From NCBI RefSeq assembly GCF_010091925.1, contig NZ_WVID01000002.1, forward strand, positions 232,867 to 296,866: a stretch of 64,000 nt of DNA. The letters run 5' to 3'. The notes under the pieces were generated by a model. It was not told the DNA's origin. It did no database searches and saw nothing but the letters and a program-made list of their open reading frames with translations. A program made the translations under genes and the position numbers. Positions 57,965 through 64,000 of this stretch are shown piece after piece (positions within the stretch are counted from its first letter, which is position 1; each line of letters begins with the position of its first letter). The DNA is from Nostoc sp. B(2019) (lineage in GTDB: Bacteria > Cyanobacteriota > Cyanobacteriia > Cyanobacteriales > Nostocaceae).

Positions 57965-58330
57965 ATGCAAGCATACAAGTTAAACGCAACAATTGATGAA
58001 TCCGGTCATTTACAGCGCTTCCAGCTCTTATGAATTACAGTTTTTCGCCTCCCCACTATCTCCTGTAGCTTTTTAGGACTGAGAACGTACCTCACAATAG
58101 CGGGAACTGCTGTAATTATTGACGAACCTCTAAATATTGCTCCTGGCAAAGTGGAAGTTATCATTCTACAGCCAACCGTAACAACTACCACAACTCCCCA
58201 ACAACCCAAAAAACGGGAATACAAAGTTCAAGCCTTAAAAGACTTGTTGGAAAATGCCCCACCCACACCACCAGACTTTGACCCAGACCAAGCCAAGTGG
58301 GAATATTTAAAGGAGAAGCATAACCTGTGA
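57965..58330 (+). pseudogene. Disrupted antitoxin gene upstream of a PIN toxin
   Basis: Both ends of a DUF2281/antitoxin-type protein are readable in one frame: N end M-Q-A-Y-K-L-N-A-T-I-D-E-S-G-H-L-Q and C part I-I-D-E-P-L-N-I-A-P-G-K-V-E-V-I-I-L-Q-P through W-E-Y-L-K-E-K-H-N-L. Between them about 100 bp of unrelated sequence has been added and supplies an in-frame TGA at 58031-58033. Short arms AATTACAG (58033-58041) and CTGTAATT (58110-58117) bracket part of the insert. The stop at 58328-58330 overlaps the GTG start of the PIN gene by the usual four bases. The full antitoxin would not be made unless translation restarts. Confidence 0.7.
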
Positions 58331-58746
58331 AGGTTCTGATAGACACCAACATTATTGTTGATGTAGCACTTGACCGTGATCCTTTCTTCACAGACAGCGA
58401 GCGAGTTTTACGCTTTGTCGAACAGCAAGAGCTTGAGGCTTATATCTCAGCATCCGCTTTTAGCGATTTATATTACATCATCCGCAAAGCCAAGGGTCAT
58501 ATCTGGGCATTGCAATTTGTACAAAGAATGGCGACACTTTGTCAAGTCGCCACAGTAGACAGTGCCACAATCAACATGGCATTAACTGCTAACTTTAAAG
58601 ATTTTGAAGGCACTATTCAATACAGCACTGCGGTACTCAATCACTTAGATGCTATTATTACTCGCAACCCTAGAGATTTTTCAGTTGCTACTCCTAGAAT
58701 TATGACTCCTGAAGAGTTGATTCAGGAATTAACGAGTACTCAATAA
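58327..58746 (+). CDS. PIN-domain ribonuclease (VapC-type toxin)
   Basis: PIN-domain protein of 139 residues starting at GTG 58327. Acidic residues Asp6 (V-L-I-D-T-N), Asp12 and the C-terminal D-F-E-G and R-N-P-R-D-F region form the metal site of VapC-like ribonucleases. It overlaps the end of the broken antitoxin gene as in ordinary type II toxin-antitoxin operons. The toxin reading frame is complete. It may be silent because translational coupling to its partner is lost. Confidence 0.85.
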   Translation: MKVLIDTNIIVDVALDRDPFFTDSERVLRFVEQQELEAYISASAFSDLYYIIRKAKGHIWALQFVQRMATLCQVATVDSATINMALTANFKDFEGTIQYSTAVLNHLDAIITRNPRDFSVATPRIMTPEELIQELTSTQ

Positions 58747-58969
58747 ATAATTAAATCAAATATCAGAGGTAGTTGAAGATAGTCAATGCCTGTATGATGT
58801 TACTACGAATTTATAATATTTTTGATAAATTTAATTATATCGATGAATTACTTTTAAATTTTAGTAAGGGTGCGATCGCGTAGCGTCTCCGTAGGAGAAT
58901 CGCCTAGGGCGGGGCGTAGCCTATCGCAAGATATTGCACCATCTAATTGATACCATCTTCATGAAAAAG

Positions 58970-59000
58970 CTGGAAGCTATTCCAATTTTTTAGCTTCCAG
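58970..59000 (-). terminator. 10-bp hairpin with T-tract on the minus strand
   Basis: CTGGAAGCTA (58970-58979) pairs with TAGCTTCCAG (58991-59000), 11-nt loop. Read on the minus strand the stem is followed by CTTTTTC, giving a terminator-like signal for minus-strand transcription coming from the HetP/peptide region. Confidence 0.55.
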
Positions 59001-59319
59001 TAGTTGTTATATAAATTGCCAATTTACAAAGCAGACATAATCCCGGTTGGGAGGACTAGGATTACGTTAGCCAAAAGAGAAGCGTATTAGCTTTAAGTTC
59101 TACAAGCCACAACAACGATTTCACCGTAACTTTTCTATTTCCGTTCTTAGTGCTGGTGCTAAAAGTAAGTTTTTGTAACTCAAGCAACACCAACCGTAGT
59201 ATAGGAAGTTTTATAAGCTATGCTTTCGCCGTTTGCCACCGACGTAAGACATACAAATGGATTGACCTCTGAAGTTCCGCCCGGACTTCTGGGAAGCAGT
59301 CACTCCAAATTTTATTTGC

Positions 59320-59418
59320 TTAGACTTCCTCGGAAAAAGAACCACCAATAGCAACAGTTAGATCGTCAGTTTTGGTGTAGAAGCTATCTAATCCATGAAA
59401 TACTGAGTGTTTTAGCAA
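59320..59418 (-). CDS. Possible small peptide ending after a Gly-Gly motif
   Basis: A 32-codon frame (TTG at 59418, TAA at 59320) whose C half reads D-S-F-Y-T-K-T-D-D-L-T-V-A-I-G-G then S-F-S-E-E-V. The residue mix looks coding, and the L-x3-x-G-G pattern with an acidic hexapeptide tail resembles double-glycine leader peptides cut by C39 peptidases. There is no good ribosome-binding site and the only start is TTG, so it may equally be the remnant of a longer gene. It lies about 640 bp downstream of the HetP-like gene on the same strand. Confidence 0.3.
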   Translation of the reverse strand: MLKHSVFHGLDSFYTKTDDLTVAIGGSFSEEV

Positions 59419-60058
59419 TCAGTTTGATGTATTTCACAGTCATAACTAGAAAATTAATTTGTTTGCCAAGTACCTCTGTGTTTTTGTTTAAGTTGTTATT
59501 TATAATTTAAAGTATTTAATCAGTATATATTTGCCATTTTGGCAGATTTTTAAAGATAGCCCATGAAATTTATTACATCCCATGCTGATGTGTAATACCC
59601 TGTTTACTAAAATACACTTGTGTCATTAAATGTAACTTTTGCAACATTTTTATCTAAAAGATTAATTCAGCAGTTCTAAAAATCGGGTCTTTTGAGATTG
59701 GAACTATCAAATCTCAGTCTGTCAGTAAAGAAAAACTGGTTTCTTGTTCTCTTTTTTATACTGAGGCATGGTTATAAATAATACTGTTTCTATTAATCAA
59801 AAAATCTAAAATTAGCATAATTAAAAACTAATAAAAAATCTGCCATGCTAGAGATTTTAAATTAGCATGGCAGGCTATGAGATACTCAATCAACTGCAAG
59901 AAATATCTATGGATTTAATATATTTTTTGATTTAATCCATAGAATTATCAGAAAATGAATTGAGTATTTTTAGGTTACAAGTGAGATTTTACTGACTGAT
60001 GTTCATCAATTTGCTTTGCCATTTTCTGATCTGAACTGTCACCGCTGATTGATATTTT

Positions 60059-60397
60059 TTACTTTCCAACTACTTCAAGATAAGCTAGGTCTTTAATTTT
60101 GCTTAAGCAGCTTGGTGAAACATTACTATCAGACCTGGAGTCATTAGAATGTTTGACTATTTTGAGATTTTCATTTTGCTGTTGGTTCGATCTACTAGCT
60201 TGAGTATTTTCTTTAAGCAATCTGTTGTATGTACGGTAGGGAATGTAATGTAGAGGATTATAGCCAGCAAATCGCAGCATTAAAACACATGCCCAGGAAT
60301 ACTTTCCGGCAAGAATTGCTTCAACTACTTTATCAAAATGTTGATTTTTCATTGTCTTGTCTAAGTTGCTACTAATGCCAGGAACGTTTTGATTCAT
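60059..60397 (-). CDS. HetP-family heterocyst commitment regulator
   Basis: Protein of 112 residues with the HetP domain at about 20-64: [20 protein letters not shown]-type start, then [18 protein letters not shown]. In PCC 7120 HetP and its three homologues act with HetR to time commitment to heterocyst formation. The C-terminal tail here is Ser/Asn-rich and divergent, so I cannot say whether this is HetP itself or one of the homologues (Asl1930, Alr2902, Alr3234 types). It stands alone in a gene-poor region, about 1.1 kb downstream of a C39-like gene on the same strand. Confidence 0.85.
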
Positions 60398-61466
60398 AGT
60401 ATTTAGTGGTCTTGCTGTTTTTAATTAAGTTTGTTAGCTGCTCAACCGTAATTCCTCAAATTTCCCTCAATTAATCGAGAAAATTGCTGCTGGTTGCTTC
60501 TCGGCTGTAGCTTTTGCTTGTTAGTGAGTGAAAGGTAAAAATTTACTTCTTGTCTTGTCATGCGACTGGCAAGATCAAAACCTCAGTGTGGCTCTTGATA
60601 GATGCAGTTTTGCCCTATTTAAATTTCTCAACTTCTAATTCAATTAATTTTCCCTAATTCGCCGCCTGCATATAATATTTCTTACTGCTCAAGAAGTTTC
60701 CGGTAAAGCTGCACATTTTTTAGGCTAGTAGAGAAAAATTATTTATCTTTGAATATTAAGAGCAATACTCGTATTTATACTATATTTTCGCCCTTAATTT
60801 CATCTGCTAAATTAGCACGCTCATAAATCAAATTTACTGAACATATTTCAAAATTTCCTTATGTATTGTGCAACTTTTAAGTTTGTCCATTTTCTCTAAT
60901 TCATGGGGGGTGTTACCCCTCGCTTACTATTATTTTGGAACTTTGATTATCTTTAATATACTAGAAAATCTATTATTAACTATGAGGTGTAACACCCTTC
61001 AATTTGGCAGCAAGATAGTTAACACTAGAAAAACTATTACTGGACATACTTATTAAAGTTAATTTGCACATCTCATGAATAAAAAAATATTATGTATGCA
61101 AAAAAAGCCTTTATTGCCAAGGCTTATAGCTATAAATGCTTGATGAAGATACAGTAATGTTATCTGATTATTTCATGAGTGCTAGTCAGTAAAAATAGGT
61201 GATAACTTGTTGATTTTATTAACTTATGATATGGATTATAAATTTTTAATCTAGTGGCAACAAAATATAATAAAACATCTGTAAGTAGATGCTTTAAACA
61301 ATAAAGATATAGGAATTTAAAAATTTCCAGCTTTAGCTAATTTAGCGGCTTATATTGCAACTAAACAATATGAATATTGCCAAGTAAATTTAGTAATAGT
61401 ATTATGCCTATTTCCTAAATCTAAGCGAATGATGAAAGTAAAATCACAGATGCACTTGTAATTGGG
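60398..61466. other. Long upstream region of the HetP-like gene
   Basis: About 1.07 kb, AT-rich, probably a long regulated leader/promoter of the HetP-like gene on the minus strand. It contains an inverted pair GGGTGTTACCCCTC / GAGGTGTAACACCC (60908-60921, 60984-60997) and a minus-strand terminator at 61100-61124. No coding sequence recognised. Confidence 0.5.
61100..61124 (-). terminator. Rho-independent terminator downstream of the C39-like gene
   Basis: On the minus strand AGCCTT-GGCAATA-AAGGCT is followed by seven T. It lies about 340 bp after the stop of the C39-like gene and 700 bp before the HetP-like gene, so the two are probably separate transcripts. Confidence 0.7.
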
Positions 61467-61958
61467 CTAAGTAGTAATAAAAACTGCTAATTGCCAGTGT
61501 GATGTCCAGTAGGTATTGACGCCGTGCTTTAAAAGCAATGCTTCAAATGCTGGACGCGAGAACCATCGCTTACCCATAGCGTGATCACACGATACGCGAT
61601 CGCCTTTAACTCGCCAAACAATTACATAAAAATTTTCTTGCCAATGAGCTATCCAAGGGTTATGATATGAGTCCAGCTTACTCAAGCTTGCCCTTATCGA
61701 TAGCACTTCAAATTCTGTTTGGGCTGCTTCTGCTAAAACCTGGAGAAACGAACCCATACGGTCTACCTGCGTTAAGTTACGCAGAACATTGAGGCTTAAG
61801 CGTGTACCCCAGTACTGTTGGCTAAATTCTGATTTTAGGCTTGTATCCCTTGTAACTAACCTCAAAAATTTGAGGATGGTAATTTTTGGAGTGGGAGACT
61901 GCTGATTACTTGTATATTTCAGCTCTCCCTGAACTCTTAACGACGAACAGGAGTTCAT
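61467..61958 (-). CDS. Stand-alone degenerate peptidase C39-like domain
   Basis: Protein of 163 residues resembling the N-terminal C39 domain of cyanobacterial peptidase-containing ABC exporters: Y-W-G-T-R-L-S-L-N-V-L-R-N-L, then L-A-E-A-A, I-R-A-S-L-S-K-L, N-P-W-I-A-H-W-Q-E-N and G-K-R-W-F-S-R-P-A-F-E. The catalytic D-C-G-A-A-C segment is replaced by D-T-S-L-K (Cys to Thr39), and the active-site His by Phe110 (E-N-F-Y-V-I-V-W); Asp125 remains. No membrane or ATPase domain follows. It is therefore a non-peptidase binding domain or a remnant of an exporter such as HetC. Family call rests on recalled sequence patterns. Confidence 0.6.
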   Translation of the reverse strand: MNSCSSLRVQGELKYTSNQQSPTPKITILKFLRLVTRDTSLKSEFSQQYWGTRLSLNVLRNLTQVDRMGSFLQVLAEAAQTEFEVLSIRASLSKLDSYHNPWIAHWQENFYVIVWRVKGDRVSCDHAMGKRWFSRPAFEALLLKHGVNTYWTSHWQLAVFITT

Positions 61959-62756
61959 GGTTTAATTTCGGTATTTTGGGTAAGTTTCTTAACTTGTGTG
62001 AGGCGAGCAGTTAAAGGAAAAAAGTTGAGAATTATCTGACTAATTGGGTTTTGCACCATTCCAACAGTCTTTGTAAAACGCAATTAATCGTGTTTTTAAT
62101 CACCCATTGCTGAGGTATCATTTCTCAGTGGCTTTCCGTAAGGGAAAGTTTGGAAAACAAAATTTTACTAGCAAAACCAAATTTCTGTTGATACCAGAGT
62201 ATTAATCATCTGCTTTCGACTCTTGTCGTCAATAAACATCTCATATTTTATCCAGTATTCATTCTTTGAATTGTCCTAATTTTTACGTTGAGATTGCTAG
62301 CAAATCAATTTTTTCAGTTGAAAATTGTCAATTGTCAACATAATCTGGGAAATATTAGGAATTTTTAGGGCTAGTTCTAGTGATAGTGGCATTTTTTTAA
62401 CCAGTAGTCTGGAGTTCTAAATCTTTCAACTCTTACCATTACTTAAATTTTCTTTCGTTTCCGGAAACACCCGGAAAATAAAATCTCACATATAATCTCT
62501 GTTTTCTCAGATGAACATCAAGTACATTTTGAAGCGCACATATTAAAACATCTATGTACATCTATTTGTATCTAAAGTTGCAAATTTAAAGTTAGATTAC
62601 CCGGCGATTGAGTACATTAATAACGTAGCCGTCAACCTCAAGAGCATTGTTAGCAAATGCCTAAAACCTCTGCACTACAAGAGTTAGTCAGCAGTGGTTA
62701 GTAGTGATTACAACTGACCACTGTTGATATTTAAAATGCTCTTGGTTGATATCCCA
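61959..62756. other. Intergenic region without recognised gene
   Basis: About 800 bp of AT-rich DNA between the GH116 gene and the C39-like gene, both on the minus strand. Small hairpin CTTTCC-GTAA-GGAAAG near 62134. No ORF worth calling. Confidence 0.45.
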
Positions 62757-64000
62757 TTACTTAATGGCTAAGTAAATTGCCCAAATTGCCATTGCTCGCA
62801 GGTAAGTACTAGCACGGAAAGTACCAGCAGCGGTGATAGCTTCAGGTGTGCGGAATTGCAGCCCATTGTCGTAAATTTGTCTGATCACAGCTTGTGTCAA
62901 CTTAAATGCTTCATCCTTCATTCCCATTTGCACGAGAAAAGCCGCTAGCCCAAAGTTAATTCCTGTCCAGACTTCCAAGGGATGAGTCGCTTTAGGGTTT
63001 TCTGGTGAACCATCGGGACGAACACCATTAGCAGCACCAAACTCACCTTGGCAGAATTTTAGAAAGCAAGCATCATAAACAGTTTTCAGGGCAGAGAGGG
63101 CGCGATCGCTTGGTACAATATCTGGTAATCCCAAAAGACGGGCGTAGAATTGTCCGCATAATTGATCTGCCATTACCACATCGGAACCACTATTACTATC
63201 GAGTTTGTAATATTGACCATTCCAGAGTTTTTCGTCGTAGATGGGGCGAGATTGTTTTAACCAGGTTTCATAGGTGGATTTTTGAACCGCCATCGCGAGC
63301 CAGCGCTGTGCGGGGGTTCCCCCCGTTGAGGCGACTGGCGCGCCGAGGTCGCCAAGATTGAGATTTAATAAAATTTCGCTGATGGCGATCGCTGCTTGTA
63401 GCGCTGCTAACCACAACCCACCACAATAGGCGCTGACACCCTGTAACCGCCAATCATCGAAGGTTTGATCAGGCGCACCGGAATTTTCAGGAATTCCATC
63501 ACCATCTAGGTCAAATGTTTTCAGGTAATCTAGGGTTTGAGCGATCGCATCCCAACAATCTGCTAAAAATTCTACATCGTCAGCACCCGTGAGTAAAAAG
63601 TCTCGGTATACTTGCAATACAAAATCGCTACCTAAATCCTTCCATAAATTACAGTCCTGATAGCTGGTGTAGTTGGTTTTTTCCCAAACGTGTTCATTGG
63701 GTGCGCCTAAATCGTGGGGTGTTGCGCCTGGGACTTTGCGAACTGCGATCGGGCTTTCTGCTTTGATTGTCAAGTAATAGCCAATTATCCGGGGAGTATC
63801 ATCACCTTGAGGAATTGCTCGTGCAAATGCCCGCATCACCGATTTTTCTAGTTCGGGAAACAGCATCAGCAGTGCAAAAGAACCATATAACCGCACATCT
63901 AGGCTTTCGTACCAGCGGTAATCTAAGCATTCCAATACTGCAAATTGACCGATGGGGTCAAGTTTTGATGCAGCACTCCAGAGAGTACCGCCGCTAGTGA
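62757..64000 (-). CDS. GH116 family glycoside hydrolase (GBA2/bile-acid beta-glucosidase-like), C-terminal part
   Basis: The reading frame runs open off the right edge; upstream residues T-S-G-G-T-L-W-S-A-A-S-K-L-D-P are in frame, so the protein starts beyond the window and the visible part is the C-terminal (alpha/alpha)6 barrel. Y-R-W-Y-E-S-L-D-V-R-L-Y-G-S-F-A and G-A-P-D-Q-T-F-D-D-W match GH116; the last Asp region carries the acid/base of the family. The nucleophile Glu lies outside the window. The family hydrolyses beta-glucosides, including glucosylceramides. A repeat (63297-63340) is translated in frame as L-G-A-P-V-A-S-T-G-G-T-P-A-Q-R-W. Confidence 0.85.
   Translation of the reverse strand, partial: TSGGTLWSAASKLDPIGQFAVLECLDYRWYESLDVRLYGSFALLMLFPELEKSVMRAFARAIPQGDDTPRIIGYYLTIKAESPIAVRKVPGATPHDLGAPNEHVWEKTNYTSYQDCNLWKDLGSDFVLQVYRDFLLTGADDVEFLADCWDAIAQTLDYLKTFDLDGDGIPENSGAPDQTFDDWRLQGVSAYCGGLWLAALQAAIAISEILLNLNLGDLGAPVASTGGTPAQRWLAMAVQKSTYETWLKQSRPIYDEKLWNGQYYKLDSNSGSDVVMADQLCGQFYARLLGLPDIVPSDRALSALKTVYDACFLKFCQGEFGAANGVRPDGSPENPKATHPLEVWTGINFGLAAFLVQMGMKDEAFKLTQAVIRQIYDNGLQFRTPEAITAAGTFRASTYLRAMAIWAIYLAIK
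63297..63340. repeat. Interspersed palindromic repeat inside the GH116 gene
   Basis: GAGCCAGCGCTGTGCGGGGG ... CCCCGTTGAGGCGACTGGCG. Its reverse complement aligns with 12681-12722 (CGCCAGTTGCCTGCGG ... GCAGCACTGGTCTC). It keeps the GH116 frame open and adds about 15 residues in a loop. Confidence 0.7.

Follow-up and report, generated by a model that had tools for sequence, protein, structure and literature searches.

A hetC remnant beside an intact hetP in Nostoc sp. B(2019), from a family whose loci point to repeated loss of hetC

On the minus strand of a 64,000-nucleotide stretch of DNA from Nostoc sp. B(2019) (hereafter referred to as the window), a short reading frame for a C39-like protein lies upstream of a hetP-family gene. 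This arrangement raises the question of whether the two are what is left of a hetC-hetP locus, a decayed copy of such a locus or a functional unit of a different kind. In PCC 7120, the hetC-hetP locus corresponds to alr2817-alr2818. The initial annotation of the window listed three ORFs on this strand, of 163 (61958–61467), 112 (60397–60059) and 32 (59418–59320) amino acids, and all three were recovered in that order. The features of the region, in window coordinates, are as follows.

62757–63998, minus strand: 3' part of a GH116 (DUF608) gene, the conserved neighbour upstream of hetC (Pfam PF04685, 452.6 bits; synteny)
61467–61958, minus strand: hetC remnant, 163-codon ORF (Pfam C39 match; HetC homology in two collinear pieces)
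61818–61958, minus strand: piece matching HetC residues 1–46, window residues 1–47 (tblastn, 68% identity)
61539–61817, minus strand: piece matching HetC residues 356–450, window residues 48–140, C39 domain (64% identity)
61807–61826, minus strand: deletion junction (alignment and repeat spacing)
61100–61125, minus strand: terminator-like hairpin followed by a run of T, separating the remnant from the promoter region of hetP (hairpin scan)
60905–60921, minus strand: HetR-type site GAGGGGTAACACCCCCC upstream of hetP, 508 to 524 bases before the gene
60059–60397, minus strand: hetP, intact, 112 amino acids (NCBIfam NF037966; dN/dS 0.02–0.07 within the genus)
59532–59544, minus strand: palindrome TGCCA-N3-TGGCA at the head of the conserved element (ten arm letters identical in 27 of 27 aligned loci)
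59221–59559, minus strand: conserved noncoding element containing the alleged Gly-Gly ORF (profile and alignments)
59320–59418, minus strand: 32-codon ORF with a TTG start, judged not to be a gene (frame intact in 4 of 12 loci)

The family assignments proposed for the two longer ORFs held: the 112-residue product belongs to the HetP family (NCBIfam HetP_family NF037966, 118.1 bits, cut-off 45), and the 163-residue product is C39-like (Pfam Peptidase_C39 PF03412, 48.1 bits, cut-off 22). The frame from 61958 to 61467 is still open over all 163 codons, and the two HetC pieces share one reading frame. The reference for these tblastn matches was the 1045-amino-acid HetC (P0001) of G001, the nearest genome with an intact hetC, which is encoded between GH116 and hetP. 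It has C39 (335–462), ABC_membrane (492–758) and ABC_tran (823–972) domains, and a cNMP_binding match (70–143) that, at 27.2 bits, falls just below the cut-off of 27.5. The name HetC is used here on the basis of domain architecture, position adjacent to hetP and published descriptions, with no direct alignment to the PCC 7120 protein, the architecture and hetP neighbour of which are described in the accessible text of PMC10986499 and PMC4133259. C39 was the sole HetC domain found by Pfam in the window ORF; the rest of the HetC domain set (cNMP-binding, ABC membrane, ABC ATPase) was sought in this ORF and gave no match. The C39 piece lacks the segment bearing the catalytic cysteine, and Phe110 occupies the column of the catalytic histidine; the catalytic residues of the PCC 7120 protein are C347 and H420, according to the accessible text of PMC10986499. 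An AlphaFold2 model of the ORF, built from six sequences, was of low confidence (mean pLDDT 43.4). Within the family sample, nearly all of the best C39 matches outside the genus lay towards the N-terminus of proteins with about 1050 amino acids. Judged by its sequence, the 163-residue ORF is what remains of hetC after the loss of the cNMP domain, catalytic cysteine, membrane domain and ATPase, and its product is predicted neither to cleave nor to export a peptide.

The order GH116-hetC-hetP in the window is the same as that in genomes with a full-length hetC, and the locus was therefore considered orthologous to theirs. Very probably, then, this cyanobacterium, which has HetR and nif genes, carries the orthologous hetC-hetP locus with a dead hetC. 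The GH116 part is 413 codons long in the window and 398 codons long in G105 and G119, and a G+C-rich stretch at about 63290–63345 (minus strand) seems to have been inserted in frame. The window resembles the PCC 7120 locus in gene order, strand, HetP family and the presence of a HetR-type site before hetP, and its remnant resembles HetC in N-terminal and C39 architecture. It differs in that its hetC is reduced to 163 codons, with the loss of the parts listed above, and in the lack of an NtcA-type site upstream of hetC. Within the window alone, hetC is an ordinary pseudogene.

The genus of the window provides the next level of comparison. Remnants of hetC were found in all five genomes examined, no two of them alike; hetP is intact in all five, and HetR and nifK are also present in each. 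In G105, G084 and G119, the N-terminal tail extends to HetC residue 77 and the next piece begins near residue 300; these genomes carry two copies of the 8-bp sequence TTAGCCAA, with starts 264, 264 and 270 bp apart, respectively. At its deletion junction, the window has a single copy of TTAGCCAA, followed by three extra bases. In G046, the HetC start is gone and residues 355–474 and 994–1038 are kept, with frameshifts. The alignment suggests that the ancestor of the genus already had a shortened hetC, and that the window lineage would have gone on to lose about 264 bp more by deletion between two 8-bp repeats, with the addition of three bases. This deletion would have fused the tail and the C39 piece in frame, giving the 163 codons.

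In three congeners, the frame stays open for 204–229 codons from the same start as the window ORF. The dN/dS of the C39 part of the window remnant, in comparisons with four congeners, was 0.58–0.75, and that of the N-terminal tail, with three congeners, was 0.21–0.38, the value for the tail against G046 having been discarded because the aligned stretch was non-homologous. Within the genus, the corresponding values were 0.02–0.07 for hetP and 0.05–0.09 for GH116. The open 163-codon frame, the open runs of the congeners and the values for the N-terminal tail therefore suggest that some constraint lasted beyond the first deletion in hetC, which seems to count against a reading of the gene as simply dead.

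The fate of hetC was examined in a family sample of 145 genomes, 142 of which had a hetP locus at an E value of 1e-20. At these 142 loci, hetC was intact in 67 cases and present as a remnant in 25; 41 loci had GH116 and hetP without hetC, six were unresolved and three ambiguous. G103 is one of the genomes lacking hetC. Of the three genomes that gave no hetP match, two (G085 and G106) carry a full hetC. Forty further loci (39 from genus g7 and one from g4) yielded 36 remnants, three absences, one unresolved case and no intact gene. HetR was found in 144 of the 145 family genomes and nifK in 143. A FastTree phylogeny of 111 GH116 proteins, which gives no direction of change and for which regain at the same place was taken as unlikely, required 13 changes between intact and lost hetC, at least 10 of them on well-supported branches. 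It covers those of the 146 loci with a long enough GH116, leaving out the short row G068 and the loci without GH116; G089 was uncounted, and the contig-split G010 and G037 were scored as intact. Three genomes scored as lost (G108, G044 and G032) encode a HetC-like protein (45–53% identity) elsewhere, and their loss of hetC is therefore less sure. These data point to at least 10 separate losses of hetC in one family that has kept HetR (144/145) and hetP (142/145).

Second HetC-like proteins, about 46–57% identical to HetC over the query, were also seen with a second HetP-family gene on the same contig, within about 6 kb (G127:C12, G137:C11, G012:C53, G019:C634 and G068:C82), a possible duplicated hetC-hetP pair.

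As far as their accessible text goes, two publications describe species without hetC: C. raciborskii CS-505, a producer of functional heterocysts from which hetC is absent (PMC2821919), and N. spumigena CCY9414, in which hetC was not found (PMC3610870). The loss of hetC is therefore, in itself, already known. Like the window organism, both species keep HetR and nitrogen fixation genes, and hetP is listed for N. spumigena (accessible text of PMC3610870), but hetC is reported absent from both, whereas the window is caught part-way, with a remnant in frame. The accessible text of PMC9284123 lists Mastigocladus and Fischerella with a hetC. The extent of the loss within the family was not found in print, and our literature search, made for the most part outside subscription journals, turned up no earlier description of hetC being lost repeatedly, of its remnants or of their kept frames.

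The remnants were surveyed at 65 loci, leaving out G010 (contig-split), G019 (contig-end) and G089 (frame-split). A HetC match was obtained for 63 of these loci, 18 of which keep the HetC start (defined as a match beginning at residue 10 or earlier), whereas 45 do not. At junctions with more than 50 residues lost, the frame was preserved in 25 of 27 cases in start-retaining remnants, but in only 6 of 18 cases, the level expected by chance, in start-less remnants (Fisher p 4e-5); junctions both in frame and free of an intervening stop numbered 22/27 and 3/18, respectively. Many of these loci share ancestry, and merging the 27 start-retaining junctions by hand into 14 events left 12 of 14 in frame (p 8e-5 against 1/3). 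Open runs of at least 150 codons were found in 15 of the 18 start-retaining remnants, versus 3 of the 45 start-less ones. In L151 (G056) and L286 (G145), 339 and 349 codons, respectively, are open from HetC start to HetC end across three large in-frame deletions. For eight pairs chosen because both frames were open, the dN/dS of whole remnant frames was 0.31–1.18, versus 0.05–0.20 for hetP in the same pairs; values for intact hetC were 0.15–0.25 (three pairs). Protein-level constraint on the remnants is thus weak, despite the keeping of the frame. The in-frame excess may reflect a mini-protein that retains some function, a benefit of translation as such or a difference in age between the two groups.

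We tentatively suggest, as a possibility rather than an expectation, that hetC, instead of being lost outright, erodes stepwise in several lineages by large in-frame deletions sparing the start codon and the N-terminal tail, that the resulting mini-protein or its translation is of use beside hetP well after export and proteolysis have gone, and that the 163-codon ORF of the window is a late stage of this process. It is possible, but somewhat doubtful, that the shortened product still has a part to play, mainly through its N-terminal tail, for example in partner binding, with frameshifts selected against and the exporter parts dispensable. The frames of start-retaining remnants at 25/27 junctions (12/14 after merging), the open runs of at least 150 codons in 15/18 of them, the 339 and 349 codons kept open across three junctions in G056 and G145, and the dN/dS of 0.21–0.38 for the N-terminal tail are all consistent with such a role. 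It is harder to reconcile with the whole-remnant dN/dS (0.31–1.18, against 0.05–0.20 for hetP) and with the differences between lineages in the HetC pieces retained, the N-terminal tail alone being common. Some remnants are, moreover, broken despite retaining the start (G189 has 11 stops, and G050 and G003 are out of frame), and remnants without the start may just be the older ones.

The keeping of the frame might instead serve to let translation cross the remnant, sparing the transcription, or the stability of the message, that reaches hetP. We consider this improbable. It would fit the combination of a kept frame with weak amino-acid constraint, and a strict scan of the hetC-hetP interval revealed terminator-like hairpins at only 11 of the 67 loci with an intact hetC (2.1 expected) and 3 of the 18 start-retaining remnants (0.6 expected). 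However, this interval is long (median 1778 bp for intact hetC and 1191 bp for start-retaining remnants), hetP often has a HetR-type site of its own, the window has a terminator-like hairpin between remnant and hetP, and the NtcA-type site upstream is no longer present in the genus. Cyanobacteria are not known to have Rho, and this also counts against such a role of translation.

The site GAGGGGTAACACCCCCC of the window agrees with the site published for hetP, GAGGGGTCTAACCCCTC, and with the rule GGGnnnnnCCC (accessible text of PMC4192349). A HetR-type site precedes hetP in all five genomes of the genus. Across the family, such a site was found within 1.2 kb upstream of hetP at 40 of 69 loci that had lost hetC (G010, G019 and G089 being entered among the 69) and 33 of 67 with an intact hetC, against 0.4 and 1.1 expected, respectively, from simple shuffles; the strict form was missing from 29 hetC-lost and 34 hetC-intact loci. 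The NtcA-type motif GTAN8TAC was enriched within 800 nt upstream of intact hetC (38 of the 66 loci usable out of 67; 14.7 expected), but not upstream of start-retaining remnants (5/18; 4.0 expected). There was no NtcA-type site in the 800 bases before the hetC remnant of the window, and none of the four members of the genus keeping the hetC start had GTAN8TAC before hetC. A terminator-like hairpin similar to that of the window is present in G105 and G084; the stricter family-wide hairpin scan missed the window's own copy. Because this hairpin is present and the NtcA-type site is missing, the case for a polarity effect on hetP is weak for the window. In Anabaena, moderate overexpression of hetP fully rescued a deletion of the hetC peptidase domain (hetC-p; accessible text of PMC4133259), and hetP dosage can therefore replace HetC. 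Commitment to heterocyst formation could proceed without HetC because HetR would drive hetP directly, and the gene content of the window organism suggests that it forms heterocysts. No patC-like protein turned up when the extracted loci were searched by motif.

The third ORF had been proposed as a possible Gly-Gly peptide of a small signalling module, with a non-catalytic C39 domain, standing on its own, that would bind Gly-Gly leader peptides on behalf of another protein acting as exporter. An open-frame C39-like piece does lie near a short ORF ending in A-I-G-G-S-F-S-E-E-V, and other C39 exporters exist in the window's genome, but such a module is very unlikely. The peptide frame is free of stops and indels at only 4 of 12 aligned loci, all in the window's genus; at the other eight, one of them from the congener G119, it is disrupted by an in-frame stop, by an indel or by the two together. 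The TTG start directly follows an in-frame TGA, and the 32 residues match no Pfam or NCBIfam family. The Gly-Gly letters correspond to the DNA string GGTGGTT, which is identical at 12 of 12 loci, and at 25 of 27 in a larger alignment, even where the frame is broken. With its broken frames and a Gly-Gly that is conserved DNA, the peptide was rejected. The C39 piece is itself missing or broken elsewhere and is not tied to the element downstream, its dN/dS is 0.58–0.75, its frame is not conserved, and congeners carry differently broken or truncated versions, the HetC pieces kept differing by lineage. The three-part order is, accordingly, not conserved, although the order GH116-hetP is widely so. 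Degenerate C39-like domains without the catalytic cysteine are known from PCAT and type I exporters, but these are parts of working exporters, needed for substrate interaction (accessible text of PMC10986499), whereas the window fragment has no exporter and lacks the entire cysteine-bearing segment.

The third ORF is, on the evidence of the alignments, part of a conserved noncoding element and should not be an exporter substrate. This element follows hetP, on the same strand, at 58 of the 79 loci whose downstream sequence extends for 1.4 kb or more and in 25 of 39 genera, the 12 loci from which the profile was built matching by construction. It occurs beside intact (22), partial (22) and absent (28) hetC, starts about 120–700 bases after hetP at most loci, and is single-copy in the window's genome. 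Besides the palindrome, it holds an AT-rich block resembling a -10 box. An Rfam identity was rejected: 58800–62700 gave no match at E values up to 1, and neither did the whole window or three loci when gathering cut-offs were applied. A consensus RNA fold was also rejected, the only pairing being the five-pair palindrome at the head, with no covariation. Small RNAs of heterocystous cyanobacteria are listed in PMC4734099, the accessible main text of which does not mention hetP. A promoter together with a leader or small RNA is one possible identity of the element. Further along the window, a PIN-domain protein (PF13470, 73.8 bits; 58151–58746, plus strand) follows a 59-codon ORF, an arrangement like that of a toxin-antitoxin pair; among 25 loci searched, including four congeners, it matched only at the window's own locus.

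The other proposal of the initial annotation, decay of a paralogous hetC-hetP locus, was correct as to decay. Paralogy, which would place the true pair at another site in the genome, is scarcely credible and was rejected: the window's genome does have three HetP-family places, but the other two share only 42 and 47% identity with the window HetP (51 and 57% over shorter stretches), the GH116-hetC-hetP order is that of full-length hetC genomes, and no HetC orthologue was found elsewhere in this genome. Its C39 matches outside the locus are at most 38% identical. Full-length HetC searches of the genus gave 41–50% identity among the best 19 matches listed, with no other HetC orthologue found, and an N-terminal HetC query gave no match at an E value of 1e-50 in any of the five genomes; many other genera have HetC orthologues at 55–67% identity. 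One of the HetP-family paralogues of the window's genome (L007, G000:C15:4462-4785) has three in-frame stops in the matched stretch, and is perhaps a decaying hetP-like gene.

In its accessible text, a 2024 study (PMC10986499) calls hetC essential for heterocysts in PCC 7120 and mentions neither raciborskii nor Nodularia. The family-wide loss of hetC bears on a gene described in these terms. It makes a long-standing question testable: which function of HetC a HetR-driven hetP can take over, and which changes accompany each loss. The remnants of the sister genus offer many natural stages for this purpose, and the keeping of the frame is a sharp, countable anomaly.
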